NCBI GenBank assembly: GCA_023480885.1
Contig: JAMCWX010000046.1
Location: forward strand, 62,001 to 126,000
Source: Chloroflexota bacterium
Lineage (GTDB): Bacteria; Chloroflexota; UBA6077; FW602-bin22; JACPRP01
Direction: 5' to 3'
Length of the DNA stretch: 64,000 nucleotides
The translations under genes were made by a program, and so were the position numbers. Shown in pieces: positions 12,464 through 63,502 of this stretch. The notes beneath the pieces are model-generated. The model did no database searches. It worked only from the letters and a program-made list of their open reading frames with translations, and had not been told where the DNA came from. Positions within the stretch are counted from its first letter, which is position 1, and every line of letters begins with the position of its first letter.

Positions 12464-14680
12464 GTGGACGACTATAAGGCGTTTCTTGAATCGAAGAGGC
12501 TGGTTGTCAGGTCAACGGGGATTGATGTCTCCCTGGATGAGTTGAATGTTTCCGCAAAACCCCATCAAGTCGACTTGACGATGTGGGCACTTCGGAAGGG
12601 ACGCGCCGCGATTCTGGCCACAACGGGCATGGGTAAGACCCTGATGGAGTTGATGTTTGGTCAGCAGGCTGCGGAAAGGTCATTGATTCTTGCGCCCTTG
12701 GCCGTAGCGTACCAGACCGTCAGAGAGGGTGAGAAGTTTGGAATTGACGTGACCTATGCCCGAAATGAAAGCCAGGCTCCCCGTCAAGGAATAACGGTCA
12801 CGAACTACGAATTACTGGAACATTTCGACCCCGACAATTTCGGAGCCGTAATACTCGACGAATCCGGAATCCTGAAATCTTTTGAGGGGAAAACTAGAAC
12901 CGCACTGATTGAGAGATTCAGGTATACGCCTATGCGCCTTTGCTGTTCCGCAACGCCAGCTCCGAATGATATAGCCGAGATTGCTAACCACGCAGAGTTC
13001 TTAGGGATTATGACGCGAGTTGAGATGTTGGCGGCGTTCTTTGTCCATGATGACAAGGGTTGGAGATTGAAGGGCCATGCTCGTGAGCCGTTCTATCGGT
13101 GGTTGGCTTCTTGGGCGATGTCATTACAGAAACCAAGTGACTTGGGGTATTCGGATGATGGGTATATCCTGCCAGAGTTGACCATTGACCCCATCATCAT
13201 TCCCAGCGATTACGTGCCTGAGGGTCAGTTGTTCGCTATCTCACTCAAAGGCGTGTCGGACAGGGCTCGAGTCCGAAAAGCCACAATGATGCAACGAGTG
13301 CTGGTAGCGGCAGACCATATAAAAGCAGAGCCGAATGAGCAGTGGCTAGTCTGGGTTGGCTTGAATGATGAAGGGCGAGAGTTGGCGAAGATGATTCCAA
13401 GCTCAGTACTCGTGGAAGGTAGCCAGTCGCCTGACGAAAAAGCCGATGCGTTAACCAGATTCGCTAACGGCGAAATTAAGGTTCTTATCAGTAAGGTGTC
13501 TATCGCGGGGTTCGGAATGAATTTTCAGAGTTGCGCCAGAATGGTCTTCGTTGGGCTCGGTGACAGCTATGAACAGTATTTTCAAGCAATCCGGCGTTGC
13601 TGGCGTTTCGGTCAGAAGCGACCAGTCAAGGTTCACATTGTCCTAACCGACTTGGAGGAAACGATTTACGAGAATGTTTTACGGAAAGAGAAGGAAGCTG
13701 AAGCCACGGCGGCAGAGCTTGTCAAGCACGTGGCTGAGTTCGAGAAAGCCGAGATAAGCACGGTGGATAGGGGTAGTTTTATGTACGAAACGAAAGATGA
13801 GAGCGGGCAAGGCTGGCGCTTCATGCTGGGGGATAGTTCCGAGAGATTGCGAGAGTTGGAATCGCATAGCGTTGACCTATCTATTTTCAGTCCACCTTTC
13901 CTGAACCTATATACATATTCCAACACGGAGCGTGACTTAGGCAACAGTTCCACGACTAGACAGTTTTGGTCTCATTTTCGATTCATCATCAGGGAATTGG
14001 CTCAGCTGACAAAGCCAGGGCGTAATGTCTGCGTTCATGTCGCTCAAATCGCTAAGCAAAAGTCTAAGGATGGAGTGATTGGCTTGCGCGATTTCAGGGG
14101 TGAGACTGTCAGGCATTTTGAGCGAGCAGGGTTCGTGTTTCACGGAGAGGTGTGTATCGACAAAGACCCCCAAGCCGTTGCTATCCGCACTCACTCAAAG
14201 GGCTTGGCTTTCATTCAGCTTAGCAAGGATGCAAGTTGGATGCGTCCGACGATTGCAGACTATATCCTGGTCTTTCGTGCTCCCGGCGAAAATCAAGTGC
14301 CGATTCATCCAGATATCACCAACGATGAATGGATAGAGTGGGCCCGGCCAATCTGGTACGGAATCAAAGAGGGTGAAACATTGAATGCTTCTGAGGCTCG
14401 CAGTGATGACGATGAGCGTCACATTTGCCCACTTCAACTGGGCACCATTGAGCGCTGCATCAGGCTTTGGAGTAATCCGGGGGAGTTGATTCTTTCTCCC
14501 TTTGGCGGAATTGCGAGCGAAGGATACCAAGCCATTAAGTTGGGTCGTCGATTCATTGGCGTTGAGTTAAAACCTGAGTATTTCCAGGCGGGTCTCAAAA
14601 ATCTCCGTGAAGCCGAACGCCTAGCCAAGCAAGTTGATTTGTTTCAGTGGGCCGAGGGGGAATCGGAGGCGGTATCGTGA
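12464..14680 (+). CDS. SNF2-family helicase fused to a beta-class DNA methyltransferase
   Basis: 738 residues from GTG 12464. The N-terminal part (about 25-430) is an SF2/SNF2 ATPase: Walker A TTGMGKT (about 53-59), a DES box in VILDESGIL, CCSATPAPN (motif III-like), and motif VI QAIRRCWRFGQKRPV. The C-terminal part (about 440-735) is an amino-methyltransferase with catalytic SPPF (476-479) preceding an AdoMet-binding LSPFGGIASEGYQAIKLGRRFIGVEL. That order makes it beta class, likely N4-cytosine or N6-adenine. Linked helicase and methyltransferase suggest a translocating protective methylase. It is followed by a C5 methyltransferase gene. Confidence 0.8.
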   Translation: MDDYKAFLESKRLVVRSTGIDVSLDELNVSAKPHQVDLTMWALRKGRAAILATTGMGKTLMELMFGQQAAERSLILAPLAVAYQTVREGEKFGIDVTYARNESQAPRQGITVTNYELLEHFDPDNFGAVILDESGILKSFEGKTRTALIERFRYTPMRLCCSATPAPNDIAEIANHAEFLGIMTRVEMLAAFFVHDDKGWRLKGHAREPFYRWLASWAMSLQKPSDLGYSDDGYILPELTIDPIIIPSDYVPEGQLFAISLKGVSDRARVRKATMMQRVLVAADHIKAEPNEQWLVWVGLNDEGRELAKMIPSSVLVEGSQSPDEKADALTRFANGEIKVLISKVSIAGFGMNFQSCARMVFVGLGDSYEQYFQAIRRCWRFGQKRPVKVHIVLTDLEETIYENVLRKEKEAEATAAELVKHVAEFEKAEISTVDRGSFMYETKDESGQGWRFMLGDSSERLRELESHSVDLSIFSPPFLNLYTYSNTERDLGNSSTTRQFWSHFRFIIRELAQLTKPGRNVCVHVAQIAKQKSKDGVIGLRDFRGETVRHFERAGFVFHGEVCIDKDPQAVAIRTHSKGLAFIQLSKDASWMRPTIADYILVFRAPGENQVPIHPDITNDEWIEWARPIWYGIKEGETLNASEARSDDDERHICPLQLGTIERCIRLWSNPGELILSPFGGIASEGYQAIKLGRRFIGVELKPEYFQAGLKNLREAERLAKQVDLFQWAEGESEAVS

Positions 14681-14696: not shown

Positions 14697-15806
14697 GTGA
14701 ATGTGGATACATGTTCCTTCGCAATTTTGTCCCTCAGTTCCGGAGCCGCCGGACTCGAAATCAGCCTTAGATTGGCGCTCCCAACTTCTCGCGTCGTCTG
14801 CTACGTTGAGCGCGATGCCTATGCCTGTGAAGTCTTGGCTTCGCGCATCGAAGACGAAAGCCTGGATGAAGCACCTATTTGGTCGGATTTACGAACCTTC
14901 GATGGCCGACCGTGGTGTGGAATCGTGGATATCCTCTCTGCAGGCTTCCCTTGCCAGCCTTGGAGTGCAGCGGGAAAGCGTCTCGGCACGATCGACGATC
15001 GATGGATTTGGGACGACATCGCTCGCATCGTTCGCGAGGTTGAGCCCGAATGGATCTTCCTGGAAAACGTACCCGGCCTTGTTCGGGGAGGGCTGGAACA
15101 CGTTCTCAGAGACCTGGCCCTATGCGGGTTCGATGCGGAATGGGATGTGTTTTCGGCGGCGCAAGTCGGCGCACCGCAGATTAGAGAACGGGTGTTCATC
15201 CTGGCCCACGCCAAAAGCAGGGGATTCGGGGTCGAACAAGAGCCTATCTCCCAACGCAACGGTACGTCCATCGTTACGCCGAATCAATTCGCTCTGGCCC
15301 ACACCAACGGGCATGGACAGCCACGGCAGTGGGGCATCCAAGAACTACCCCAGCAGGGGCAGGTCGCACGCAGGGATGACGCTGACCGATGCGACGGCGA
15401 GGGGCGCGATGTGGCCGACACCGAAATCATCGGACGCCGATCACGGAGGGCCGAACCAACGGGACAGCAAGGGCAAGATGGCGTTACCGGGGATGGCGAA
15501 CCACTGGCCCAGCCTGATGAGTGCGGATGCTTCGCGGGGGAGCGAGACGTTCAAACGAGGCAACCCGACACTCTTGGGCTGTTCCCGCCAGGCCCTTCCG
15601 AACTCGACGAGTGGCGGCGCGTCCTCGAGGTCGAGCCGAGTCTTGAACCCGCGATTTGTCGAATGGCTGATGGGCTGGCCCCTGGGTTGGTCAAATCCAG
15701 CCTTGCCTATCAAATCGATCAGCTTCGCGTCTTGGGAAATGGAGTCGTCCCATTGGTTGCGGCAGTTGCTTTTGCGGTTTTGTGGCAGCGACTTGTTACC
15801 GGTTGA
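14697..15806 (+). CDS. dcm: C5-cytosine DNA methyltransferase
   Basis: About 369 residues; GTG 14697 is 5 nt after AGGAGG (14686-14691). It contains the C5 methyltransferase motifs in order: LSSGAAGLEISLRL (motif I region), AGFPCQPWSAAG (catalytic Cys), ENVPGLV (ENV), AAQVGAPQIRERVFILAHA (QxRxR) and RVLGNGVVP at the C-terminus. It probably methylates phage DNA against host restriction. The middle is low-complexity with repeated L-A-H/V-A-D units because another long ORF (14701-15846) is read in the +1 frame through the same DNA. Confidence 0.88.
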   Translation: MNVDTCSFAILSLSSGAAGLEISLRLALPTSRVVCYVERDAYACEVLASRIEDESLDEAPIWSDLRTFDGRPWCGIVDILSAGFPCQPWSAAGKRLGTIDDRWIWDDIARIVREVEPEWIFLENVPGLVRGGLEHVLRDLALCGFDAEWDVFSAAQVGAPQIRERVFILAHAKSRGFGVEQEPISQRNGTSIVTPNQFALAHTNGHGQPRQWGIQELPQQGQVARRDDADRCDGEGRDVADTEIIGRRSRRAEPTGQQGQDGVTGDGEPLAQPDECGCFAGERDVQTRQPDTLGLFPPGPSELDEWRRVLEVEPSLEPAICRMADGLAPGLVKSSLAYQIDQLRVLGNGVVPLVAAVAFAVLWQRLVTG

Positions 15807-15846
15807 TAGCGTGATTCAACCATTACTATCGGAGGCAATACCTTGA
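14701..15846 (+). CDS. overprinted ORF within dcm (WPTP-repeat protein)
   Basis: 381 residues in the +1 frame across the whole dcm gene. It starts at ATG 14701, 9 nt from the same AGGAGG used by dcm. It carries repeated WPTP-A-D-like blocks (SSWPTPKAGDSG, SLWPTPTGMDSHG, MWPTPKSSDADHG) and ends with LNPRFVEWLMGWPLGWSN. I know such WPTP/FVEWLMG sequences as a recurring protein type in phage C5-methyltransferase loci, which argues that this frame is selected rather than accidental. Each WPTP is the shifted reading of an L-A-H-T codon run in dcm. Its product and function are unknown. It overlaps the next gene by 4 bp. Confidence 0.5.
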   Translation: MWIHVPSQFCPSVPEPPDSKSALDWRSQLLASSATLSAMPMPVKSWLRASKTKAWMKHLFGRIYEPSMADRGVESWISSLQASLASLGVQRESVSARSTIDGFGTTSLASFARLSPNGSSWKTYPALFGEGWNTFSETWPYAGSMRNGMCFRRRKSAHRRLENGCSSWPTPKAGDSGSNKSLSPNATVRPSLRRINSLWPTPTGMDSHGSGASKNYPSRGRSHAGMTLTDATARGAMWPTPKSSDADHGGPNQRDSKGKMALPGMANHWPSLMSADASRGSETFKRGNPTLLGCSRQALPNSTSGGASSRSSRVLNPRFVEWLMGWPLGWSNPALPIKSISFASWEMESSHWLRQLLLRFCGSDLLPVDSVIQPLLSEAIP

Positions 15847-16898
15847 CGCTCACAATCCCTTCAGAAATCCAACAAGCAATGTCACAAGGTGCTGCACTCG
15901 CTATCAGCATTTCAGGTGGCAAGGATTCGCAAGCAATGTTGAACGTTCTCGCAGCAGAGTACAAGCGTCAAAACTGGTCAGGGCCAATCTACGCCATTCA
16001 CGCGCACCTTGGCAGGGCGGAATGGCCGCAGACACTGGGGCACTGTGAGAAGATCACGAGGGATCTGGGCATTGAGCTGGTCGTCGTCTCCAGGCCCCAA
16101 GGCGACCTGGTGCAGGAAATTCACGATCGAATGGAGAAGGTCGCGGGCACCTACAAGCCGCATTGGCCCAGCGCCACGAACCGCTATTGTACTTCAGATC
16201 AAAAACGAGGGCAGATCGACAAAGTTATCCGAGTGCCGCACTGGCCTAGCTCGACCAGTCGCTATTGCACATCGCACCACAAGAGCAATCAGATCGACAA
16301 GGCGATTCGTTCACACTGGCCAAGTTCGACGCAGCGGTATTGCACAGCGGATCAGAAACGAGATCAGATAGTCAAGCAGCACCGTCAGCATCGCTTGGTC
16401 GTTGCGGCAATGGGGCTAAGGGCAGAGGAGAGCCCAGCTCGAGCGAAAAAGCAGGCCGCCTCTGTCTGTTCTAGAACGACGTCGACCGTATTGAAGGGAT
16501 TGCTCCCTGGCGAAGCTCTTGCCAAGCAGCAATCCAATCAACATCTAACCATCGACTGGCTGGCGATTCACGATTGGAAAGTTGATGATGTTTGGGATGC
16601 ATGCGGAACCGATAGAGATGCATTGGAGATACGCCGAGGGCTGTACAGGGAAGGGCTGAAACTCCGGTCGCTTGATGGCTGGCCTGCCCATCCCGCTTAC
16701 GTCTTCGGCAATGAGCGGCTGAGTTGCGCAATCTGCATACTCGCTTCGAAAAACGACATCATCAACGGCGCCAAGCACAATCCCGAACTGTATCGCGAGT
16801 ATGTTGCGATGGAGCGGGAGAGTGGGTTTACCTTTCGACATGGCTTCGCGCTGGAAAGTCTGGGGAGTGAATTAGAGTTAGCGGAGGTGCTATCTTGA
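15843..16898 (+). CDS. PAPS-reductase-like PP-loop ATPase with triplicated insert
   Basis: 351 residues from TTG 15843 after GGAGGCAATACC. The ATP-pyrophosphatase loop SISGGKDSQA is at residues about 22-31. The family of PAPS reductases and adenine-nucleotide alpha-hydrolases normally has one HWPS..RYCTSDQKR segment; here it occurs three times in tandem (residues about 107-182). The C-terminal part has AIHDWKVDDVW and a Cys pair in LSCAICILAS. Phage members are linked to DNA or nucleotide modification chemistry, but the substrate is not established. The context of two methyltransferases supports a DNA modification role by inference. Confidence 0.7.
   Translation: MTLTIPSEIQQAMSQGAALAISISGGKDSQAMLNVLAAEYKRQNWSGPIYAIHAHLGRAEWPQTLGHCEKITRDLGIELVVVSRPQGDLVQEIHDRMEKVAGTYKPHWPSATNRYCTSDQKRGQIDKVIRVPHWPSSTSRYCTSHHKSNQIDKAIRSHWPSSTQRYCTADQKRDQIVKQHRQHRLVVAAMGLRAEESPARAKKQAASVCSRTTSTVLKGLLPGEALAKQQSNQHLTIDWLAIHDWKVDDVWDACGTDRDALEIRRGLYREGLKLRSLDGWPAHPAYVFGNERLSCAICILASKNDIINGAKHNPELYREYVAMERESGFTFRHGFALESLGSELELAEVLS
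16161..16388 (+). repeat. three in-frame tandem repeats inside the PP-loop gene
   Basis: Three units of 78, 75 and about 75 bp starting at 16161, 16239 and 16314. They encode HWPSATNRYCTSDQKR..., HWPSSTSRYCTSHHKS... and HWPSSTQRYCTADQKR.... The DNA copies have diverged while HWPS-T-RYCT and the Cys are kept in each, so the duplication is old and under constraint. Confidence 0.85.
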
Positions 16899-37057: not shown

Positions 37058-38065
37058 ATGCTTGCTCTGCATCTCGCCAATCAAACCGATACCGACGCTG
37101 CTCGTGTTGCGCCACTCTGTGACGACTTCATTGTGCTGAGCATTTTCCCCCAGCAGATGCCAGCAATCCGAGCCAGCAATCCAAATGCTCGGTTCCACGT
37201 GCGATGGTGGCTTGACAAAGGGGCATTGCCTGATTCACTTCAAGAGGCACGCAAGGCAGCAGCTTGGTGGGCAACTTGGGGTGCCTATGTTGCCTCTTCC
37301 CGTTGTGGAAATGAGGGCAATTTAGAGACGCCACACACAGCGCAGCAATACATGGCCTGGCAAATGAACTTTGCGTTTGAGTTGCACAGGTTGATACCAG
37401 GCATCTCGCTTTGGTTACCTGCCCCTTCGCCTGGAATGGCAGATTCCCCCGATTGGGTGCAGGGCATGGCTGATTGCGCGAGAGAAAACCCTGACCTGTT
37501 TATCGGCCTTGACGCGCACGCCTATGGTACACCTCAAGAGGTCGACGGGGTTCTATCGGTTTTTAGGCACCACTGGCAAGGGCCGTTGAACGTCACGGAA
37601 TGCAATTTTGGCGCTGGGCGGCAATGGGACTTGAACGCTTATGCTGCTGCTTTGCCTGAATATTTGGCCGTTGCACGAAAGCACAAGGTCAACTTTCTTG
37701 GGTTCTTCATCTGGGTTTGGAACAATCCTGATATGAAGTTGCCGACTACGGCAAGCATCAAAGACACGCCGATGGAAACGGCGATGAGAAACTATGTTGA
37801 TGGAGGTGAAACTGTGGCTTGGGATAGGCACGCAGTCTACGACGAGTGGCAGAAGCTCTTCGGCGGCCAGGGATACAATCCTGGGGATGCTTTCGGTCAG
37901 ATCATCAAGAGTAATCCCGATCGAGAATACGGCGTCTTCGTGGGCGGCTACCACGTCGAAGAGCCTTTCATCTACGCGTATACGACAGTCGGCATCTTCT
38001 GCTACGACAAGCGGAGCAGCAAAGCGGTGTTTGCGACTAGTGAGGAAGAGCTCCCTTTCTCTTAG
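37058..38065 (+). CDS. glycoside-hydrolase-like endolysin domain
   Basis: 335 residues with a TIM-barrel glycoside hydrolase pattern: RFHVRWW, SSRCGNEGNLE (acid/base Glu position), LFIGLDAHAYG, GPLNVTECNFGAG (second Glu) and FLGFFIWVWNNPD. A C-terminal domain follows (HAVYDEWQKLFGGQGYNPGDAFGQII). No signal peptide. It probably cuts peptidoglycan glycan. A slippery heptamer and stem-loop at its stop codon would shift ribosomes into the amidase frame, giving a bifunctional endolysin. Confidence 0.7.
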   Translation: MLALHLANQTDTDAARVAPLCDDFIVLSIFPQQMPAIRASNPNARFHVRWWLDKGALPDSLQEARKAAAWWATWGAYVASSRCGNEGNLETPHTAQQYMAWQMNFAFELHRLIPGISLWLPAPSPGMADSPDWVQGMADCARENPDLFIGLDAHAYGTPQEVDGVLSVFRHHWQGPLNVTECNFGAGRQWDLNAYAAALPEYLAVARKHKVNFLGFFIWVWNNPDMKLPTTASIKDTPMETAMRNYVDGGETVAWDRHAVYDEWQKLFGGQGYNPGDAFGQIIKSNPDREYGVFVGGYHVEEPFIYAYTTVGIFCYDKRSSKAVFATSEEELPFS

Positions 38066-38103
38066 ATCCGTCAGTCAGTCAGGTAATACTACTGGACTGG
38101 CGG
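38053..38103 (+). promoter_or_regulatory. candidate -1 programmed frameshift site (endolysin)
   Basis: Heptamer C-CCT-TTC (38053-38059) in the exact zero-frame phase X-XXY-YYZ, two codons before TAG. An 8-nt spacer follows, then a 9-bp stem CCGTCAGTC (38068-38076) / GACTGGCGG (38095-38103) with one G-U. Slippage enters a frame open through 38673 that encodes the amidase. Confidence 0.65.
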
Positions 38104-38673
38104 GAAAGTGACTTCATTGCAAGAAGCATTGGCACGGATGGCAACGGGCGTTATTTCCGAAAGCGCAACCAACCGATTACAGGTGCATTGATTCACAATA
38201 CTGGAGGAATGGAGAGCATTGAGGCTGATAACAATTATCATAGACAAAAGGACTGGGGAGAGGGTAGCCGGGCGCCGCACATCGCTTATACATTGTGGCT
38301 TCCCTATGAGCCAATGGCCTTTCTGGTTGCGTACGGTATCGCCTGCGATGAGCAGAATCCGCCGAAAGGCGTGGCTGTGCTCTGTAACTATCTTTGGGAG
38401 CGCACCTGGCACGGCACGAATGCCAACGATAGCTGCCTCGGCGTTACCTGCCAGGTTGACGGCGAGAGCCAGGAGTTGAGCGAAAGTCAGAAGCTCGCTG
38501 TTACCTGGTTGCTCAATGAGTGGCTGCCAGGCCAGGGGGTGAACATTCCGAAAGGCAATGTCTGGGGGCACGGGGAAACGCCGAATGTCTACGGCGGCGG
38601 GCCTGATTTTGGCAACAATACTGTGTGCCCGGGGAAGTATGTGCTTCCCTGGGTCAAGAGTTTAAGAAGTTAG
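38059..38673 (+). CDS. N-acetylmuramoyl-L-alanine amidase domain (read by -1 frameshift)
   Basis: 205 codons in the -1 frame relative to the glycoside hydrolase. It has an amidase_2 pattern: WRESDFIARSIGTDGNGRYFRKRNQPITGALIHNTGG (first His), then HRQKDWGEGSRAPHIAYTLWL, and HGETPNVYGGGPDFGNNTVCPG at the end with a His/Cys zinc-site pattern. No ATG, GTG or TTG precedes the first beta-strand; TTG 38188 would delete part of it. Expression by frameshift is therefore the best explanation. It cleaves the sugar-peptide bond of peptidoglycan. The alternative is that the two halves were split by a mutation. Confidence 0.65.
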   Translation, partial: LLDPSVSQVILLDWRESDFIARSIGTDGNGRYFRKRNQPITGALIHNTGGMESIEADNNYHRQKDWGEGSRAPHIAYTLWLPYEPMAFLVAYGIACDEQNPPKGVAVLCNYLWERTWHGTNANDSCLGVTCQVDGESQELSESQKLAVTWLLNEWLPGQGVNIPKGNVWGHGETPNVYGGGPDFGNNTVCPGKYVLPWVKSLRS

Positions 38674-38685
38674 AAAGGATGCTTT

Positions 38686-39159
38686 ATGTTCAATCAGTTT
38701 CTACAGACAATTCTGGAAAACAATCAACTTCGCGTCCTCTTCTGGTTGCTTATCGGCGACCTTATATCCCTGCTCGCCTTTAGCATCTTCAGCAAGAAAC
38801 TAGATTTGGAAGAGGCGTTAGGTTTCTACCAGACGCGATTGGTGCCTGCCCTGCTCGGCTACGTTGCGATGCTCGCCCTGGCTCAGGCCGATGTGAATAA
38901 TACCTGGCATCTGGCGGACGCAGCTAATGCGGCCTGGCTGGTGCTTATTGGCTTGTTACTCGTCGATGCGTATTCGCACTTAGAGAAAGTCGGTATACCT
39001 GTTCCCAAGTCCATCTCTAAGCAGAACGTTATGCGCATCGACGATGCGGTGAGGCTGCTGAAAGCGTCGAGCCCACTCAGGCCAGGCAAAGACATAGTGT
39101 TGCCAAGCGTCTCGACCGACGCCAAGGAAAAGCCCGACTCGCGCCGGGCTCCCGTATAG
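38686..39159 (+). CDS. holin-like membrane protein
   Basis: 157 residues from ATG 38686 after GAAAGGATGCTTT. Three hydrophobic segments (RVLFWLLIGDLISLLAFSIF, LVPALLGYVAMLALAQ, AAWLVLIGLLLVDAYSHL) and a charged C-terminal tail resemble toxin-secretion/phage-lysis holins. Location straight after the endolysin supports a lysis role: it would permeabilise the membrane to release the enzyme. Its last codons include a GC-rich inverted repeat (AGCCCG/CGGGCT). Confidence 0.7.
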   Translation: MFNQFLQTILENNQLRVLFWLLIGDLISLLAFSIFSKKLDLEEALGFYQTRLVPALLGYVAMLALAQADVNNTWHLADAANAAWLVLIGLLLVDAYSHLEKVGIPVPKSISKQNVMRIDDAVRLLKASSPLRPGKDIVLPSVSTDAKEKPDSRRAPV

Positions 39160-39469: not shown

Positions 39470-39821
39470 GTGTCGAATGGTTGACTTCGAGAAGATTCGA
39501 ACAGGTGAATATCGCCCTGTGCCTGGGGATATGTGGTATGCACCTGGTGAGATCATCAAGAATGGCAAGGATGGCGGCTCGTACATCTATGGTTACCGTC
39601 TTTCAGACCAGTACGTCGCCAATGTCAAAGACAAGCGGCAGCCCATCTTCGTCTGCCTTCCGAGGAATATTCACTTCTGTGTCGATTCAGCAACGAGCGA
39701 TGGCAACGGTAAAGGATGGGAAGTATCGGGAGAGGCGCCCAATATCAACGTGTCGCCGTCAGTTCATATCGTCAACCGGTGGCACGGCTGGTTAAAAAAC
39801 GGGGAAATTACGGATGCTTAG
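39462..39821 (+). CDS. phage protein, SPSI/WHGWL family copy 3
   Basis: 119 residues from ATG 39462. It shares GDMWYAPG and the core WEVSGEAPNINVSPSVHIVNRWHGWLKNGEI with the products at 32681 and 33085, so this family occurs three times in 7 kb. Function unknown. Leader element B starts after it. Confidence 0.6.
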   Translation: MIKCRMVDFEKIRTGEYRPVPGDMWYAPGEIIKNGKDGGSYIYGYRLSDQYVANVKDKRQPIFVCLPRNIHFCVDSATSDGNGKGWEVSGEAPNINVSPSVHIVNRWHGWLKNGEITDA

Positions 39822-39840: not shown

Positions 39841-39947
39841 TTGCTTCTTTGATTTAGAACTGTTATTATATCATCAACTTAACATTGCGGCTTGTCGTAG
39901 ACCGAAGGCCACGTTTTTGGATAGTTCCAAGCGTGGCCTTTTTGTTT
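39841..39947 (+). promoter_or_regulatory. promoter and conserved leader element, copy B
   Basis: TTGCTT (39841-39846), 17 nt, TATTAT (39864-39869). Then the 16-mer TTGTCGTAGACCGAAG (39892-39907), the two-tier hairpin GGCCACG/CGTGGCC (39907-39938) with inner TTGGA/TCCAA, and TTTTTGTTT. The next gene starts at 39958. Best-defined promoter of the three copies. Confidence 0.7.
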
Positions 39948-39957
39948 GGGAGCAGAG

Positions 39958-42264
39958 ATGCCAGTCAAGATTCGACCCAACGCTATACGGGTTAAATTCG
40001 GTACTCTCCTCAAAGAGGCGCATCCCTACGATTCGATTCAGTTGACGGGTGAGGCGCCGAGCGATTGGAGCTATTACCGTGTCATTGCACTCAGGGCCGA
40101 TATCCCCAATTCTAACGGAGATTGCTTTCCCCTTGCAGAACTTACCGAGGCCCACAAGACATTCCTCGGTCAGCATTTTAGGCTGAACCACGATCAGATT
40201 TCCGATCAGGCTGTGAGAGGCAAGGTGTTCGATGCCGTGCTTGTTGAGCATCCGCAAGGCGCGTATCCCCAGGTTTGTGGGGCAGAGTGCAAGGCGCACG
40301 TTGAATGCCTAGTCGGCATCGACACTTCGAGCTTTCCTGACTTGATTGCAAGCATTGACCAGGGCAACCTGGACGTGTCGATGGGTTGCGTCTGCGAATC
40401 AGCTTCCTGTTCGATTTGCGGGAATGTCGTCACGGACGATTACCAGGAGCCGTGTTACCACATCCAGTATTACAAGGGTTCTACGTGGAATGGCAAGCCA
40501 GTTTATGAGATCATTCATAAGCCTGAGTTTGTGGAGTTGTCCAAGGTTGAGGATGGAGCCGATGAAGCGGCGGTGATTTTGGAGCGGGTGGCAAGCAAGA
40601 ATGGTGAAGGATTCACTGATAAGCTGAGCAACTTGTTCAAGGTCATTGCGCGACGACTTGGAGTGAGTGTGGAGGACTTGGAGCGCGAGGCGAGACTGGA
40701 ACGGAAACCGAGTGCAACGCTACTGGCGTTGAGGGAGAACAGGCAGGCGGAGAGATATCGGGAGTTGATTGCCGAGGACTACAAGTACGGTTCAACGCAA
40801 TTCGATTTGCCAAAAGAGATTGCCGATGTTGTTCTAGCTTTCGGAAAAAGCATTCCGCCCGAGGATTTGGCCCCTGATGGCGTTGAGGATAACCCACACA
40901 TCACGGTCAAGTACGGGATTAAGGATCAAGCAGAAGATGCGCTGGAAATACTACAAGATTTGCTCATCGACCAGCCGCCAGTCAAGGCGTCCTTTGGGCC
41001 TGCTTCGCTGTTTGAGAACGATGATTTTGACGTGCTGAAGTACGACGTGAAAAGCCCAGCACTTCACAATCTGAATGCCAAAATCGCTGGGGTGCTGGAC
41101 ACCGTTAACACGCAAGATGAGTACGTGCCACACGTGACTGTCGCTTACCTCAAGCCAGGACGGGGTAGGGATTACGTCGGCAACGATGATCTGATAGGCA
41201 AGTCAGTCACATTGGATAAACTCATGTTCTCTGGCAAAGACGGTGAGACAGAGGCGATCAAGCTGACGGGAAAAGCGACTGAAGCCAGCCGTAAGTGTAA
41301 GGCCGGTAGCGCCGTCTACCAATGGAAGATGGAATCCGACAAAAGGGTCTGTGGGGAGAATCGACAGACAGCCAAATACCGACAATTGAAGGCGAAAGCA
41401 CCCACGTTTGATTACGGGGTAGCCAAGTCAATAATTGAGGAAGGTATGACTATCACCGATTGGTGGACTGATCCTAATTATAACAAGGATGAACTCGTTG
41501 AGTGGTTTGGTGAAAATGCTTTGAAGAGAGGCGTTGAGCTTGCGTTACAAGATGGGGGGCGAATTCCTGCTGATGTGCTGGCTGATTATCCTGATCTTGT
41601 GGCTAAGTATGGCAAGCAAGCAGAGTATTCGAAGCATGCGGCGCCTGCTAGAAAAGTGAAGGCCGCAACCACCTACGAATGGGTCACCCAACAAGACGAA
41701 AAAGTCTGTGAATCTTGCGCTGCAATGGACGGCGAAACCCGCGAAGCGGACGACACTTACAAGAATGGGGTTGATAGGCCACCGCTACATGATCACTGTA
41801 GGTGCTCAGAGCGTCGCGTGAGTGGCGCAAGCCGACAGATTGACTACAAGCAGAGGCGAGAGGCCCAAGCTACCTGCAAACCCACTTCTGCGTTATTAGT
41901 CAAGGGAGACGATTCGCTCTTTACGCAAGAGTTACGGAGTTATTGGAATAGCTGTACCCTTCTAATAGAATCATATAAGGGGCTAGTGGAAGATGCCAGT
42001 GAGATTGTTCAGGAGCTTGAAGAGTTTCGGAATGAGGCTAACGAAAGTGACCTCAACGAATATATCTCAGCAATAGTGGAAGACTACAGTCCGAATGTTG
42101 GTGGCAAAAGAGATGTCGTTGCTCTTGCCCTCAGAGACATTGACACTGAGGTAGCTAAACTCCAACAGTTGCAGCTATCCCTTAATCGCAAACCCACTTC
42201 GGCATTACTTGCTCTGCGCACTCTAAGGCGCCGAGAACTTCGAAAGGAGATTACAACGAAATGA
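39958..42264 (+). CDS. multidomain head protein: prohead protease/core-like + 2H phosphoesterase + MuF-like
   Basis: 768 residues from ATG 39958. Residues 1-230 resemble myovirus prohead core/protease N-termini (VIALRADIPNSNGDCFPLAELTEAHKTFLGQHFRLNHDQ; VSMGCVCESASCSICGN; HKPEFVELSKVEDGADEAAV). Residues about 275-440 have two HxT motifs 78 residues apart (PHITVKYG H314; PHVTVAYL H392), the hallmark of 2H phosphoesterases. Residues about 575-620 (CESCAAMDGE... PPLHDHCRC) match the MuF/minor-head C-terminal metal motif. A KPTSALLALR-type motif recurs at residues 250, 641 and 745, and RKCKAG/RKVKAA linkers separate modules. Probably a capsid-internal polyprotein. Confidence 0.65.
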   Translation: MPVKIRPNAIRVKFGTLLKEAHPYDSIQLTGEAPSDWSYYRVIALRADIPNSNGDCFPLAELTEAHKTFLGQHFRLNHDQISDQAVRGKVFDAVLVEHPQGAYPQVCGAECKAHVECLVGIDTSSFPDLIASIDQGNLDVSMGCVCESASCSICGNVVTDDYQEPCYHIQYYKGSTWNGKPVYEIIHKPEFVELSKVEDGADEAAVILERVASKNGEGFTDKLSNLFKVIARRLGVSVEDLEREARLERKPSATLLALRENRQAERYRELIAEDYKYGSTQFDLPKEIADVVLAFGKSIPPEDLAPDGVEDNPHITVKYGIKDQAEDALEILQDLLIDQPPVKASFGPASLFENDDFDVLKYDVKSPALHNLNAKIAGVLDTVNTQDEYVPHVTVAYLKPGRGRDYVGNDDLIGKSVTLDKLMFSGKDGETEAIKLTGKATEASRKCKAGSAVYQWKMESDKRVCGENRQTAKYRQLKAKAPTFDYGVAKSIIEEGMTITDWWTDPNYNKDELVEWFGENALKRGVELALQDGGRIPADVLADYPDLVAKYGKQAEYSKHAAPARKVKAATTYEWVTQQDEKVCESCAAMDGETREADDTYKNGVDRPPLHDHCRCSERRVSGASRQIDYKQRREAQATCKPTSALLVKGDDSLFTQELRSYWNSCTLLIESYKGLVEDASEIVQELEEFRNEANESDLNEYISAIVEDYSPNVGGKRDVVALALRDIDTEVAKLQQLQLSLNRKPTSALLALRTLRRRELRKEITTK

Positions 42265-50230: not shown

Positions 50231-50659
50231 ATGCCTGACGCTCAAGTTTCAGGTCGGCACTATAACATACTGATCGGCGGCAAGCGTGTCGGCGGCTTGC
50301 AATCCGTCCAGGCGACGGAGAACTTCGACACGGCGCGCTCCTGGGAGATCGGGAGCGACTTGCAGTACAAGACGCCTGGCCATCGCAGTGGCAAGGGTAC
50401 ACTGAACCGCATCTATCTCAAGAAGTCCGATATCAAAAGCATCCTCAAGCCAGATGGTGTCACCGACTGGGACGGCGACCTACGCGGCGTGCTCTTTGAC
50501 ATCGTGGAGACGATCAAAGACCCGCTGACCAGCGCAGTGGTGGAAGTCGCGACCTACGTCAACTGCACGGTCGACAGCATCACATGGAACCAGAGCGATC
50601 CCGTGGCGCTACGGAGCGAAAATGCGCCGTTTACCTTCGAGTACAAAAGAACGAGCTAA
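50231..50659 (+). CDS. tail tube protein
   Basis: 142 residues from ATG 50231 after GAGGAGGTGCTGCT. Beta-sandwich composition (HYNILIGGKRVGGLQSVQATENFDTARSWEIGS... GVLFDIVETIKDPLTSAVVEVATYVNCTVDSITWNQSDPVALRSENAPFTFEY) is typical of contractile tail tubes. Sheath-tube order is canonical. Confidence 0.82.
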   Translation: MPDAQVSGRHYNILIGGKRVGGLQSVQATENFDTARSWEIGSDLQYKTPGHRSGKGTLNRIYLKKSDIKSILKPDGVTDWDGDLRGVLFDIVETIKDPLTSAVVEVATYVNCTVDSITWNQSDPVALRSENAPFTFEYKRTS

Positions 50660-50704
50660 TTCGAAGGTTGTTGGGGCAAATAATGTGGTGCTTTCCCGAA
50701 AGGG

Positions 50705-50713
50705 TGCTATAAT
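50705..50713 (+). promoter_or_regulatory. extended -10 promoter of the lipoprotein moron
   Basis: TGC-TATAAT, a consensus extended -10 located between the tube gene and the lipoprotein start, within an otherwise continuous tail operon. The -35 at 17 nt (GTGGTG) is poor. Confidence 0.5.
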
Positions 50714-50744
50714 GCTGGCAAAAAGCATAGGAGGTAGGCGAACA

Positions 50745-51290
50745 ATGGTAGGCAAATCAGGGGGCTTTTTGCGGGCAGCGACGATGCGGCGGGCGTTGGC
50801 GCAGGGGATGTGGGCGATGGTCGGAGTAATCGTCATTGGTTTACTTCTGTCAGGTTGCGGATCATCTCTATTTGCGTCTGCTACACCAACTCCAGATCAG
50901 GCAACAGTTTGGCGAACGGTTCAAGCCAATGTGCCCGAAGTCAGAGATGTTTCACTTTTTGAGGCAAGAAAGGTAATGAGCTTACTGGGGCCAGATGTTG
51001 AGTGGCTTGACGTAATGGTTCAGATAAGCGGCAAGCGGGGTACCGATGCGATTAAGATGCAGCAAATGCTGCATATCACAGAAGATGAAATGCGAACACG
51101 GCCAAGTATCGTGTTGGAGAAGATGTTTGCATATCTCCGCAACGTTAGCACTAACAGCAATCCCAGCATAGCAAAGGCTATTGCATTTGAGATTATGACA
51201 AAATATCTTCTGATCAACATTGATTTGAAAACCGCAGATAGACTCATAGAATTAGCTTTCTCTTCATCTGCACCCTCTCCATCAAGATAA
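50745..51290 (+). CDS. lipoprotein moron (possible superinfection exclusion)
   Basis: 181 residues from ATG 50745 after AGGAGGTAGGCGAACA. N-terminus: basic residues, hydrophobic helix WAMVGVIVIGLLL, then lipobox LSGC followed by GSS, a bacterial lipoprotein signal. The mature part is soluble and helical (EVRDVSLFEARKVMSLLGPDVEWLDVMVQI). It interrupts the tube-chaperone gene order and has its own -10, the signature of a moron expressed in the lysogen. Prophage lipoproteins in other systems block superinfecting phages. That function is inferred here. Confidence 0.65.
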   Translation: MVGKSGGFLRAATMRRALAQGMWAMVGVIVIGLLLSGCGSSLFASATPTPDQATVWRTVQANVPEVRDVSLFEARKVMSLLGPDVEWLDVMVQISGKRGTDAIKMQQMLHITEDEMRTRPSIVLEKMFAYLRNVSTNSNPSIAKAIAFEIMTKYLLINIDLKTADRLIELAFSSSAPSPSR

Positions 51291-51361: not shown

Positions 51362-51718
51362 ATGACAGAAGCTAACACAGATGATCCCCTGATCCAAGTC
51401 TTTGGCGGAGTAATGATTGGCTCAGCGCGGGTGATGGGCATAGATGTCAAAATGCGAACCCTCACGAGTAGCGAAGTCCAGGACATACTGGCGCAGTGTC
51501 AGTCCATCCAGGATACGCCGTTACGACTTCACAAGGAAATGAGCCTAACCCTTGCGTACTCCCTTTTAGAAGTGGCTGGCAACGCACTCCCAGAATTGAT
51601 CGGTGAGCGAGTGACACTGATCGGTAGCTGGCGCCAGACGATCATCGACAAATTAGCTACTGCCTATGGGGAATTAACCCAAAAAGAGCGGCTGTTAATC
51701 GATGAACTAAAAAACTGA
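51362..51718 (+). CDS. tail assembly chaperone, upstream part
   Basis: 118 residues from ATG 51362 after ACGGAGGTAACCGAAA. Helical protein (SSEVQDILAQCQSIQDTPLRLHKEMSLTLAYSLLEVAGNAL). Together with the next frame and the A-AAA-AAC slippery site it forms the gpG/gpGT-type pair that loads the tape measure protein. Located exactly between tube and tape measure, as in other long-tailed phages. Confidence 0.8.
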   Translation: MTEANTDDPLIQVFGGVMIGSARVMGIDVKMRTLTSSEVQDILAQCQSIQDTPLRLHKEMSLTLAYSLLEVAGNALPELIGERVTLIGSWRQTIIDKLATAYGELTQKERLLIDELKN

Positions 51719-51754
51719 CTTCCGACCCTCGCAGTCGAAACTTGTGGAGGGTCG
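51709..51754 (+). promoter_or_regulatory. -1 programmed frameshift site (tail chaperone)
   Basis: A-AAA-AAC (51709-51715) in zero-frame phase, immediately before TGA. A 7-nt spacer follows, then an 8-bp stem CGACCCTC (51723-51730) / GAGGGTCG (51747-51754). The -1 frame is open through 52032. Matches the conserved tail-chaperone frameshift of dsDNA phages. Confidence 0.88.
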
Positions 51755-52032
51755 TGACTGGCTGTAGCTTGTGGCGCGACCGAGATATTACGCCACTTCA
51801 GATGACCTGGGCGATGATGAATGCCCAGCAAGATGAACGTGAAATAGTAGAGCGGGAGAGTAGGCTATACAAGGCTCTATACAACATCGTTCACGGTAAC
51901 CCCGAAAAGACGGGGGCGTTGCTCTTTGGGCAAAGAGAGGTTTCCATAGATCCGGACTTTGAGGCTGAAATGAATAGCGATTTGTGGTGGGGTGAAGCTG
52001 ACGAGTCGAAAGGAATAAACTGGAATGATTGA
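51715..52032 (+). CDS. tail assembly chaperone, frameshifted extension
   Basis: 106 codons in the -1 frame. A TTG at 51742 exists, but translation is expected mainly by frameshift. LWRDRDITPLQMTWAMMNAQQDEREIVERES and a Trp-rich acidic end. Overlaps the tape measure start by 8 bp. The fused protein is thought to coat the tape measure during tail assembly. Confidence 0.8.
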   Translation: MTSDPRSRNLWRVVTGCSLWRDRDITPLQMTWAMMNAQQDEREIVERESRLYKALYNIVHGNPEKTGALLFGQREVSIDPDFEAEMNSDLWWGEADESKGINWND

Positions 52033-53656
52033 CCCGAAGGTACAGCAAGAGGTAGTTCAACTCAGAGCCGAAGTCAATGTCCCGTCAGAAGGTATCTATG
52101 ATGGTGCTCAGAAAATGGGCTACCTCAGCACCAGCGTCAAGGACACAGGGAAAAGCATTAACGAAACATCCGACATGTTCAACAAGCTCAGAAGTGAGTT
52201 GTTTCTTGTGACAGGGATGTTGGGATTCAGCTTCCCCCAAGCAATTAGCGCTAGCGCTGTTGCGATGGCGGCATTAAATGTCAGCGAGCGTGCGGCGCAA
52301 CTGCGTCAGTATGAAAAGGTTATGACGGGAAGTACCCTGGCGTCTGATGAGTGGGTGAAGAAGAGCGAAGACAGTGTTTTGAGATTGGCCATAGCTAATG
52401 GAATGCTGACGGGAGAGGTGCAAAAGCGGATACTGTTGCTTGGGCAACACCGAATACCGCAGGAGCAATTACTAGGCGCTTTTGATGCCATGCGGTTGGC
52501 GATGTGGGAGCTTGCAACTGATTCTGACACGGCAACACAGATAGTCTCGTTTGCGTTAGCGAGACAAGGCAAATCCATCAACCAGGCCGAATTGGATGTA
52601 GAGAAGTATAGGTTACTTGCTAAGGATATGGGAGTACCAGCGAAAGAATTCGCGAATGCGTTGGCGCAATTGGAGCAACAACTTCCCACAGAATCTATAA
52701 AGATGAGACCAGAAAGCTTGATTCCATTTCTCAAAGAGTTTCACGAGGCGGGCCTTCCAATGCTCGAAACTATCGTTGGCGCACCGTTCCAGAGGCAGCT
52801 ACTTTGGGAGAACCTTCCAGGCGTCGGCATCACCGAAGAGGACATTCAGCAAAGTCCTGAAAGAGCCATGCTCAAAATGATGCAGTTTGCAGAACAGAGT
52901 ACTCATAGCCTTCAGGGCTACCCAAAGGAACGCCGAATGGCGATAGAGAGTCTTCTAAGGGGCGTCTTTGGTTTCAGCACAGAAGAAGGTAAGTTCCTTG
53001 CGGAGGAGTTCGAGAAGGAAATCGACAGCAACATACCCTGGCAGCAAATGGTAGATGCATTGCCGAGGAAGGTTCAGGAAAAGGCGATAGAGGGAGCGCA
53101 ACGACTGCCACAAGCCAAGGCCAAGTCACAACGAGAGGGGAAGGATATACTCGGAGCTGGGAGTCGGTTGGTTCAGGATTACTTTTGGTATCAGTTGGGC
53201 AAGGAATGGAATCAGCGTAGTTGGCAGGAAAAGTCTCAGTTCCTCGTGGGGAGCTTGATTCCTGGCGTTACGCCTCTCCTTTTATCACGTTATGGCTTCC
53301 CTGGGGTAGCAGATGTAGCTACGAACCTCGTGAAGAATTTCACAGAATCGGATTCGCTGAAAGCCTCAATGGTTCCGTCTCATATCGTACGGGGGGCTCC
53401 CGTCAGTGGTGTTTCTGCCAGTTCCGCAGTTGACAGGCTCACCTCCCAGTCTCAACTTCAAGGCATTCCTGCCCATACACCCATCCAGCAGCAACAATCC
53501 AAAGCAGACATCAATCTGCGTATCGAGATTACAGGCGACGCAGCAAGGCAGGCCAGAGTACAGCGTGTCGCAGTACCACAACTTCCAGGGCTCAACATCG
53601 GCGTGGACATCATCGAGAACGGCGTGAATAATATAGGACATCTGTTTGGAAGGTAA
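52025..53656 (+). CDS. tape measure protein
   Basis: 543 residues, mostly helical with hydrophobic patches (LFLVTGMLGFSFPQAISASAVAMAALN; VGSLIPGVTPLLLSRYGFPGVADVATNLV). It follows the chaperones and is the longest helical tail protein, so tape measure is the best call. It is short for a myovirus, suggesting a tail of only about 80 nm by the usual 0.15 nm per residue rule. The C-terminus has a small beta domain (ADINLRIEITGDAARQARVQRV). Confidence 0.8.
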   Translation: MIDPKVQQEVVQLRAEVNVPSEGIYDGAQKMGYLSTSVKDTGKSINETSDMFNKLRSELFLVTGMLGFSFPQAISASAVAMAALNVSERAAQLRQYEKVMTGSTLASDEWVKKSEDSVLRLAIANGMLTGEVQKRILLLGQHRIPQEQLLGAFDAMRLAMWELATDSDTATQIVSFALARQGKSINQAELDVEKYRLLAKDMGVPAKEFANALAQLEQQLPTESIKMRPESLIPFLKEFHEAGLPMLETIVGAPFQRQLLWENLPGVGITEEDIQQSPERAMLKMMQFAEQSTHSLQGYPKERRMAIESLLRGVFGFSTEEGKFLAEEFEKEIDSNIPWQQMVDALPRKVQEKAIEGAQRLPQAKAKSQREGKDILGAGSRLVQDYFWYQLGKEWNQRSWQEKSQFLVGSLIPGVTPLLLSRYGFPGVADVATNLVKNFTESDSLKASMVPSHIVRGAPVSGVSASSAVDRLTSQSQLQGIPAHTPIQQQQSKADINLRIEITGDAARQARVQRVAVPQLPGLNIGVDIIENGVNNIGHLFGR

Positions 53657-61772: not shown

Positions 61773-62077
61773 TGCAAGAGATAGTAGTTACCAGGGAACG
61801 TCGCTCAACGGCCAGTGACAATTTATCTGGCCTGGTGCTCAGCGTAACAATCAATGGAAGACCATTGGACGTGGTTATTCCACTCGATGCTATCGAAAAC
61901 CGAAAGCGGCTTTACGGCCTGGCAACCGACCAGGAAGCCATCAACGCCATTCTCAAAGAGCACGCTACCCGTGAATTGGAACTAGGGCCAGACGACAACG
62001 CTGATCCTCGATTGGCAACGATGGGTGGATTGCGTCAGGATGTAAAAGTGAGCAGAAAAGCCCAACGAACCACTTGA
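61772..62077 (+). CDS. hypothetical protein after the tail fibre
   Basis: 101 residues from ATG 61772 (overlapping TGA). Beta-rich middle (LVLSVTINGRPLDVVIPLDAIENRKRLYGL) and a basic end. Last gene of the rightward structural operon, where fibre chaperones often lie. That role is possible but unproven. It converges with the integrase. Confidence 0.55.
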   Translation: MQEIVVTRERRSTASDNLSGLVLSVTINGRPLDVVIPLDAIENRKRLYGLATDQEAINAILKEHATRELELGPDDNADPRLATMGGLRQDVKVSRKAQRTT

Positions 62078-62139: not shown

Positions 62140-63264
62140 TCACTGTTGAGTTGAGCATTCTCTCAGTATCCTACTCATCATCCTCGCTATTTCCTCATCC
62201 TGCTTCTTGATTGCGTGAGCATAGATTGACATCGTGATGTTGGCATCGGCATGGCCAAGCCGAGCGGAGACAGCGGTTATCGGAAGATTGTTCCCCAGTA
62301 GCAGGGTGGCGTGTAAGTGCCGTAGTTGATGGGGACTAATCTCCCTTATCCCCAGCTTCTTGCATTGCCTGGTCAAGGCATGCTCAATCATTGATCGGCC
62401 TAGAGGTTCACCTTGAATAGTCGTGAAGATCAACTCGTTATCTTGCCAAGCGTCACCTGCCTTGCCGTGCCACTCTATTTGTTGCTCCTGTTGTCGCTTC
62501 AGAGCGTCGACACCCTCAGGGGGCAGCGCGATTGTTCTGAATCCAGATTCCGTTTTCGGGGCATTTTCTAGCCACTCGCCCTTAACCTTGCGTAAGCTTC
62601 CCCTTATCGTGATTGTGCCGTTAATCAAATCGACATCTGACCAGTGCAAGGCCATTAGCTCTCCGATGCGGCAACCACTGGCCGCAGTCACGAGCCACAA
62701 CGGGCCTAGTCGATGTTCCCGTGATGCTTTGAGGAAGGCGCGCAGTTCTTCGGGACTCCATAGGCTCTTACGCTCTGACTTGCTTCGAGGAACGAGTACC
62801 CTGTCGGCAGGATTGCTGACTAGCCAACCCCAAAGAACAGCCATCTTCAAGGCTCTATGTAGAAGGGAATGAACGAAACTGGGTATACGCTTTCGTCCTT
62901 TGGCGCTCAGGTCATTGTAAAGCATCTGTAGATGTGCGGGATTAAGATCACGAAGTTTGATGCGTCCCAGCCGTGGCCTGATGTGGCGGTCGCAGATATC
63001 CTGATAGTCGGCAATCGTGCCAGCTCGTAGGGAATGACTCGCCGTCTCAAGCCACAGGCCTAGCAAATCATTGACGGTCTTACGGCCAGGATCGGGAAGC
63101 GTGTTGTCGCTACCGATGGCGCGTTGCAGTTCTGCGAGTTTACGTTTTGCCTCTCGCTCGGTCTTGGCGTAAACCGTTTTGCGCTTGCCGTTTATCTGTA
63201 GACTGGCACACCATTTACCGTCAGAACTTCTTCGGTAGACGGTGCCAGCGTTGCCCGAGGGCAT
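62140..63264 (-). CDS. int: tyrosine integrase
   Basis: 374 residues from ATG 63264 after GGAGAGGACAATCAG. Residues 1-60 are an arm-binding-like domain (GTVYRRSSDGKWCASLQINGKRKTVYAKTEREAKRKLAEL), about 65-150 a core-binding SAM-like domain, and 165-360 catalytic. Active residues: R199 (SGCRIGEL), K237 (PKTESGFR), H312 and R315 (HQLRHLHAT), H338 (LGHAD), Y348 (SIYAH). It integrates and excises the prophage at the adjacent tRNA-Leu 3' end. Oriented toward the structural genes and away from the tRNA. Confidence 0.93.
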   Translation of the reverse strand: MPSGNAGTVYRRSSDGKWCASLQINGKRKTVYAKTEREAKRKLAELQRAIGSDNTLPDPGRKTVNDLLGLWLETASHSLRAGTIADYQDICDRHIRPRLGRIKLRDLNPAHLQMLYNDLSAKGRKRIPSFVHSLLHRALKMAVLWGWLVSNPADRVLVPRSKSERKSLWSPEELRAFLKASREHRLGPLWLVTAASGCRIGELMALHWSDVDLINGTITIRGSLRKVKGEWLENAPKTESGFRTIALPPEGVDALKRQQEQQIEWHGKAGDAWQDNELIFTTIQGEPLGRSMIEHALTRQCKKLGIREISPHQLRHLHATLLLGNNLPITAVSARLGHADANITMSIYAHAIKKQDEEIARMMSRILRECSTQQ

Positions 63265-63380: not shown

Positions 63381-63420
63381 ACATATTGTGGTTGATCCGC
63401 CTAAACGCTGCAAGACCGGG

Positions 63421-63502
63421 TGGGGAAGCGGGGACTCGAACCCCGACGCCTTTCGGCACATGATCCTAAGTCATGCTCGTCTACCAGTTCCGACACTCCC
63501 CC
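63421..63502 (-). tRNA. tRNA-Leu (anticodon UAG)
   Basis: Complete cloverleaf on the minus strand: acceptor GGGGGAG/CTTCCCC with one G-U, D-arm with TGGTAGACG, anticodon stem CATGA/TCATG around CTTAGGA (anticodon UAG), a short class II variable arm (GTGCCGAAAGGCG), T-arm GGGG-TTCGAGT-CCCC and discriminator A. CCA is not encoded (CCC follows A). The 3' end faces int, so the attachment core probably overlaps positions 63421-63450. Confidence 0.92.

Follow-up and report, generated by a model that had tools for sequence, protein, structure and literature searches.

The stretch analysed here (64,000 nt, positions 62,001 to 126,000 of JAMCWX010000046.1; hereafter the window) is part of the 137.8-kb contig C14 of a 3.09-Mb metagenome-assembled genome (MAG) of a Chloroflexota bacterium. 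It carries a contractile-tailed prophage, in which terminase, portal, capsid and sheath genes were recognised. The subject of this report is a lysin locus of that prophage, in which two open reading frames (ORFs) on the forward strand meet in different registers. The first, in the 0 frame (37058–38065), encodes a 335-residue protein that is predicted, from homology to a second glycosidase in the same MAG, to be a GH-A-type glycoside hydrolase followed by a C-terminal domain of ~75 residues. The second, in the -1 frame (38053–38673; 206 codons), encodes a linker and an N-acetylmuramoyl-L-alanine amidase of the Amidase_2 type and has no canonical start codon. The locus gives a PHROG endolysin match (E = 2e-6) and adjoins a candidate holin gene; its lytic activity is a prediction. 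A preliminary description of this DNA had proposed that the two ORFs are joined by a programmed -1 frameshift into a single bifunctional endolysin.

The glycosidase ORF is served by a Shine–Dalgarno (SD) sequence of -7.9 kcal/mol. In profile searches the protein itself matched no Pfam or PHROG family. It is homologous (E = 5.8e-12; 27% identity) to a 310-residue glycosidase that was found by using the window protein as a query against its own MAG, and this relative passes the cut-off of Glyco_hydro_cc (PF11790; 21.7 vs 21 bits). The relative is encoded on contig C66, another prophage end adjoining an integrase and a tRNA-Thr. A third lysin with the same layout (locus L072, contig G006:C324) lies in a MAG from a different family of the host's order, and was reached by an Amidase_2 search of the host's class (29 genomes) followed by a scan for heptamers near 0-frame stops; its contig appears siphophage-like, judged by the arrangement of its genes and by a long ORF resembling a tape measure. 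The three glycosidases are 26–28% identical to one another. Both candidate catalytic glutamates are invariant across them and stand at the expected places, the window protein having its putative acid/base E86 in CGNEGN and its putative nucleophile E181 in VTECN (WNEV and ITEC are the motifs in G006). The glycosidases of C66 and G006 also have clearly related C-terminal domains (QFPxxxxxWxAAGGxENNF). Together, the profile match of the C66 relative and the invariant Glu pair suggest that the window glycosidase is of clan GH-A type. Looser profile hits (L053, L054, L057–L059 and L105) were distant GH-A-like proteins with no frameshift, and helped in the fold assignment only. No close homologues of the window lysin were found in IMG/VR, phage records or 400 genomes of the phylum, and all 29 matches to the motif FIWxWxNPD in the viral and genome collections were unrelated. 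AlphaFold models of both window proteins were too weak (pLDDT 36 and 46) and were not used.

The -1 frame product matches Amidase_2 (PF01510) with E = 1.6e-6 and 28.9 bits, against a curated cut-off of 26. The residues that, from knowledge of the family, we take to be its zinc ligands, namely the histidines of LIHNT and WGHGE and the cysteine of VCPGK, are all present. The frame is open from 38044 to 38673, that is, from 9 nt 5' of the slip site described below, and overlaps the 0 frame by just 22 nt. No ATG, GTG or TTG occurs in it between 38044 and the amidase domain; the first such codon is TTG 38188, which falls within the first strand of the amidase (...ITGALIHNTGG). The statement that this amidase lacks any usual start ahead of its first strand is thus borne out. 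If the amidase were nevertheless translated separately, by termination-reinitiation or from an independent start, the window would have to use a near-cognate codon such as CTG 38092 or ATT 38116. An SD of -5.3 kcal/mol at ATT 38116 speaks for this possibility; over all near-cognate candidates the SDs lie between +0.9 and -5.3 kcal/mol, whereas the 38 ATG genes of the window have a median of -7.2 kcal/mol, and some 80% or more of ATG genes in the phage have stronger ones. Codon-usage scoring of 38062–38187 gave a signal too weak to place the frame change.

The final codons of the window glycosidase are GAG CTC CCT TTC TCT TAG. As had been proposed, they contain the slippery heptamer C_CCU_UUC (38053–38059) in exact 0-frame phase, two codons ahead of the stop and within the 22-nt overlap; the TAG (38063–38065) follows 3 nt 3' of the heptamer. 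C_CC.U_UU.C has been named among the motifs giving high-level -1 frameshifting in Escherichia coli, and H_HH.U_UU.Y is one of the most efficient classes there (PMC4066793). After a spacer of 8 nt, the RNA is predicted to fold into a putative stimulatory hairpin (38068–38103), the 9-bp outer stem of which pairs 38068–38076 with 38095–38103 (CCGTCAGTC/GACTGGCGG); the stem may also be written CCGUCAGUC/GACUGGCGG, beginning 8 nt 3' of the heptamer. The 38-nt hairpin has a folding energy of -17.9 kcal/mol and a z-score of -4.6 against dinucleotide shuffles. The window has two elements of a -1 programmed ribosomal frameshifting cassette, an allowed in-phase heptamer in the overlap and a 3' structure 5–9 nt further on. 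In addition, an SD-like GAGGAA (38042–38047; anti-SD duplex -6.4 kcal/mol) ends 5 nt 5' of the heptamer and may act as a 5' stimulator; this element is weaker at both relatives than in the window. Slippage of the RNA polymerase, rather than of the ribosome, would likewise yield both products. Transcriptional slippage requires long runs of A or T, whereas no run of more than three identical bases occurs at the site, and the spacing of the hairpin suits a ribosome; we consider this explanation highly improbable.

The same anatomy recurs at the two related lysins, each of which belongs to another prophage. The C66 gene ends in GCA CTC CCT TTA GCG TGA, with a stem of 8+5 bp starting 7 nt 3' of the heptamer, and the enzyme in its -1 frame is an SLT transglycosylase (PF01464; E = 3e-10). 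The G006 gene ends in GCC CTC CCT TTA CCG TGA, with a 9-bp stem (CGGCGAGGG/CCCUCGCCG) also 7 nt 3' of the heptamer, and its -1 frame encodes an Amidase_2 domain (E = 1.6e-17). All three genes thus share the terminus CTC-CCT-TTH-NNN-stop with a stem 7–8 nt further on, the stem sequences being unrelated; in this small sample the signal is conserved throughout. Among these homologues the heptamer (as C_CCT_TTA), the distance to the stop and the spacing of the stem are kept, and none was found in which the two enzymes are fused in frame or the gene is repaired by an indel. Recurrence in two other glycosidase lysins lends support to the proposed frameshift fusion, and the recurrence with another kind of second enzyme goes beyond the preliminary description. 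It also bears on the possibility that an assembly indel error, or a recent frameshift mutation, has split an originally in-frame fusion gene. The sequence is a MAG assembly, the frames overlap by only those 22 nt, and one missing base would produce the same two ORFs; against this, three contigs from two genomes show the same layout in the same position, heptamer and hairpin together are improbable by chance, the key residues of both enzymes are present, and the homopolymers at the site are only 3 nt long. An indel is accordingly a very improbable origin for this arrangement.

The relatives are less one-sided with respect to a separate start. In both C66 and G006 a GTG overlaps the 0-frame stop (GTGA), which could give a free second enzyme by reinitiation, either alone or beside frameshifting; the SDs of these GTG codons are weak (-2.6 and -3.0 kcal/mol vs the median of -7.2 kcal/mol for the ATG genes of the phage). 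Moreover, an SLT homologue in a further genome (L091, 1264–1971 of G008:C163; 46% identical to the C66 SLT) has no heptamer, lies in the -1 register relative to a small upstream ORF that it overlaps, and can start at a TTG, which makes independent initiation plausible in this SLT enzyme family. A homologue with a clear independent start for the amidase was what the preliminary description had said would refute it, and possible starts of this kind are seen for the relatives only (GTGA with a poor ribosome-binding site, and the G008 SLT), and not for the window. Separate translation of the second enzyme leaves the heptamer in all three genes, the TTA codons and the stems unexplained, and the window has no ATG, GTG or TTG to offer it. 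We therefore regard it as an unlikely account.

The chance occurrence of such signals was assessed by counting in-phase X_XXY_YYZ heptamers in the prophage contig, C66 and host contigs, comprising 340 kb of this genome. There are 205 of them in 97,296 in-frame codon positions (0.0021 per position), and four of the 205 fall within the last 22 nt of a gene: those of the window lysin, the C66 lysin, the tail chaperone of the window phage and one other. Both lysins and the chaperone have hairpins of -16.8 to -21.5 kcal/mol placed 5–8 nt further on, while the fourth gene has none. When the -1 frame was recoded synonymously, the numbers of recodings per 2000 that folded as well were 16 for the window, 45 for C66, 72 for G006 and 21 for the chaperone. 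Leu-Pro-Leu would be expected to be written CTC CCT TTA with a frequency of 0.0018 in C66 and host and of 0.0007 in the G006 contig, because TTA makes up only 3% and 1.7%, respectively, of their Leu codons. These unusual TTA codons, and stems that differ in sequence and agree in place, suggest that it is the site and not the peptide that is kept. A search for CTCCCTTTHNNNTRR in the 29 genomes of the class returned ~50 sites, and among the true-stop sites examined only at the three lysins does a 0-frame ORF of at least 100 residues stand together with a -1 ORF of 60 residues or more; since the pattern was picked after the three lysins had been seen, this result is a measure of specificity rather than an independent test. 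The pattern CTCCCTTTANCGTGAGC was also tried in viral contigs and gave four matches, all of them chance. Overlapping genes are frequent in phages and the cases here are few, so that one could suppose two separate overlapping lysis genes with coincidental heptamers, the window amidase being poorly expressed or dead. The heptamer-position, CTCCCTTTHNNNTRR specificity, recoding and codon-choice statistics all argue against such a coincidence, to which we attach almost no weight.

Taken together, these data indicate that the lysis gene most probably makes the glycosidase alone and, by -1 programmed ribosomal frameshifting, a minority fusion of the glycosidase to an amidase or a transglycosylase. 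In the window, most ribosomes would terminate at the TAG of ...CTC CCT TTC TCT TAG, releasing an unfused glycosidase. A smaller share would be held at C_CCU_UUC by the hairpin, and perhaps also by the SD-like element, whereupon tRNA-Pro and tRNA-Phe (tRNA-Leu on UUA in the relatives) would re-pair on CCC UUU in a tandem slippage. The shifted ribosomes would continue as ...ELPF-LLDPSV... through the amidase to give a bifunctional glycosidase-amidase lysin, which would contain the shift-spanning peptide AVFATSEEELPFLLDPSVSQVILLDWR. The same signal would serve a glycosidase-SLT transglycosylase in C66 and a glycosidase-amidase in G006, so that the second enzyme varies and the shift site stays. 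A fixed ratio between the two forms may matter for lysis.

Several points, beyond the GTGA overlaps and the G008 homologue, weigh on the other side. The C_CCU_UUA of the relatives lies outside the most efficient class of the published E. coli rules. The layout comes from only three loci, in two MAGs that belong to a single order, and close homologues from which synonymous-site conservation could be judged were not found for the window lysin. Two looser candidates with hairpins, upstream of a -1-frame Amidase_2, were set aside because the heptamer is further from the stop and normal starts are possible: L075 (G023:C457, 413; C_CCT_TTT) and L078 (G028:C527, 1402; C_CCT_TTC). The heptamers of L066 and L099 were rejected as lying in frames that do not look coding.

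The same phage has a second signal of this design at its tail-assembly chaperone pair (51362–52032, forward strand), in agreement with the preliminary description. The ORF 51362–51718 ends in CTA AAA AAC TGA, with A_AAA_AAC at 51709–51715, and a 7-nt spacer is followed by an 8-bp stem (51723–51730/51747–51754; CGACCCTC/GAGGGTCG). The -1 ORF ends at 52032, just inside the next ORF (52025–53656), which occupies the tape-measure position. The lysin gene is not itself this chaperone frameshift, as it lies 13 kb upstream of the separate chaperone pair. A -1 frameshift of the G/GT (E/E') type in the tail-assembly chaperones of tailed phages was reportedly described by Xu, Hendrix and Duda in 2004 and is reviewed in PMC5009743. 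The window phage has one such frameshift of its own, with the same slip-7 nt-stem design; in contrast to the chaperones, the lysin products are two lytic enzymes, and the heptamer is C_CCU_UUH rather than A_AAA_AAC. A lipoprotein-like ORF (50622–51290; signal LLLSGCGS), possibly a moron, separates the chaperone from the gene at the tail-tube position.

Modular two-enzyme endolysins, such as those of glycosidase-amidase type, show the same pairing of glycan-cutting and amide-cutting domains, but ordinary modular endolysins are one uninterrupted ORF, with the domains in a 1:1 ratio. Most known programmed frameshifting in tailed phages concerns tail and capsid genes. The lysin of lactococcal phage phi-vML3 is said to have been described by Shearman in 1994 as two overlapping genes. 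In the account of it given in PMC3111421, the overlapping lysin genes of phi-vML3 resemble the present case and differ in encoding a lysozyme-like protein and a smaller holin-like protein, with no second catalytic domain in that account. A putative slippery sequence with a -1 shift was also noted between the endolysin and an overlapping gene (genes 39/40) of Alteromonas phage vB_AspP-H4/4, where the second product is an internal virion protein and the report is a one-sentence announcement with no analysis (PMC5658483). The PRFect paper lists lysins among frameshift-containing genes, in a citation group that includes Shearman 1994 (PMC10885494), and frameshifts have been predicted in genes near the endolysins of Streptomyces phage TonyStarch (PMC9671017). 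The endolysins Lys170, CTP1L, CD27L and Ms6 LysA are alike in that one lysin gene gives two products, which may form heteromers in a set ratio (PMC9430671, PMC4777826, PMC3111421), and two-polypeptide endolysins illustrate that a set ratio between lysin forms can have a function (PMC9430671). In Lys170-type endolysins an in-frame internal start yields the C-terminal part as the short form, whereas here the short form would be the N-terminal enzyme and the long form would need a change of frame. No endolysin shown to be frameshifted into a second lytic domain was found in CC-licensed PMC full texts, subscription papers being outside that search, so that novelty is uncertain. The earlier statement that no endolysin made in this way has been described thus holds for the openly licensed PMC full texts and needs qualifying in the light of these partial precedents. 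As judged from the sequences, -1 frameshifting would here be a known mechanism in a new use.

The lysis cassette lies with the portal gene on one side and a capsid-maturation gene on the other. Its candidate holin (38686–39159, forward strand) is a membrane protein with only a sub-threshold match to Phage_holin_4_1. The ORF 39946–42264 is an unusual three-part capsid gene, with head-maturation-protease-like, RNA-ligase-family-like (phrog_755) and MuF-like head-morphogenesis parts. A further heptamer, AAAAAAC near 39794, was discounted because the -1 ORF there overlaps the following gene and gives no sign of being coding. Elsewhere in the window, a 738-residue ORF (12464–14680) matches DNA helicase profiles across nearly its full length and methyltransferase profiles over its C-terminal half, and is followed by a DNA methyltransferase gene and a PAPS-reductase-like gene (14701–16898). 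An integrase (62140–63264) beside a tRNA-Leu (63419–63502) probably marks a prophage end. Relatives of the phage were sought in IMG/VR through its major capsid protein and none was found.

Beyond the individual gene, we suggest tentatively, at somewhat short of even confidence, that this lysin family keeps the -1 shift site as a conserved joint, by which an excess of glycosidase is made together with a set minority carrying an exchangeable second enzyme; the lysin would then be a fixed-ratio, possibly multimeric assembly dosed by translation. A conserved frameshift joint in lysins, if true, would point to selection on the ratio between the two lytic activities. It would also mean that gene finders overlook a class of lysins, since a second enzyme that may lack a start codon would appear in annotations as a fragment or be left out, and it would provide a natural route to mixed one- and two-enzyme lysins.
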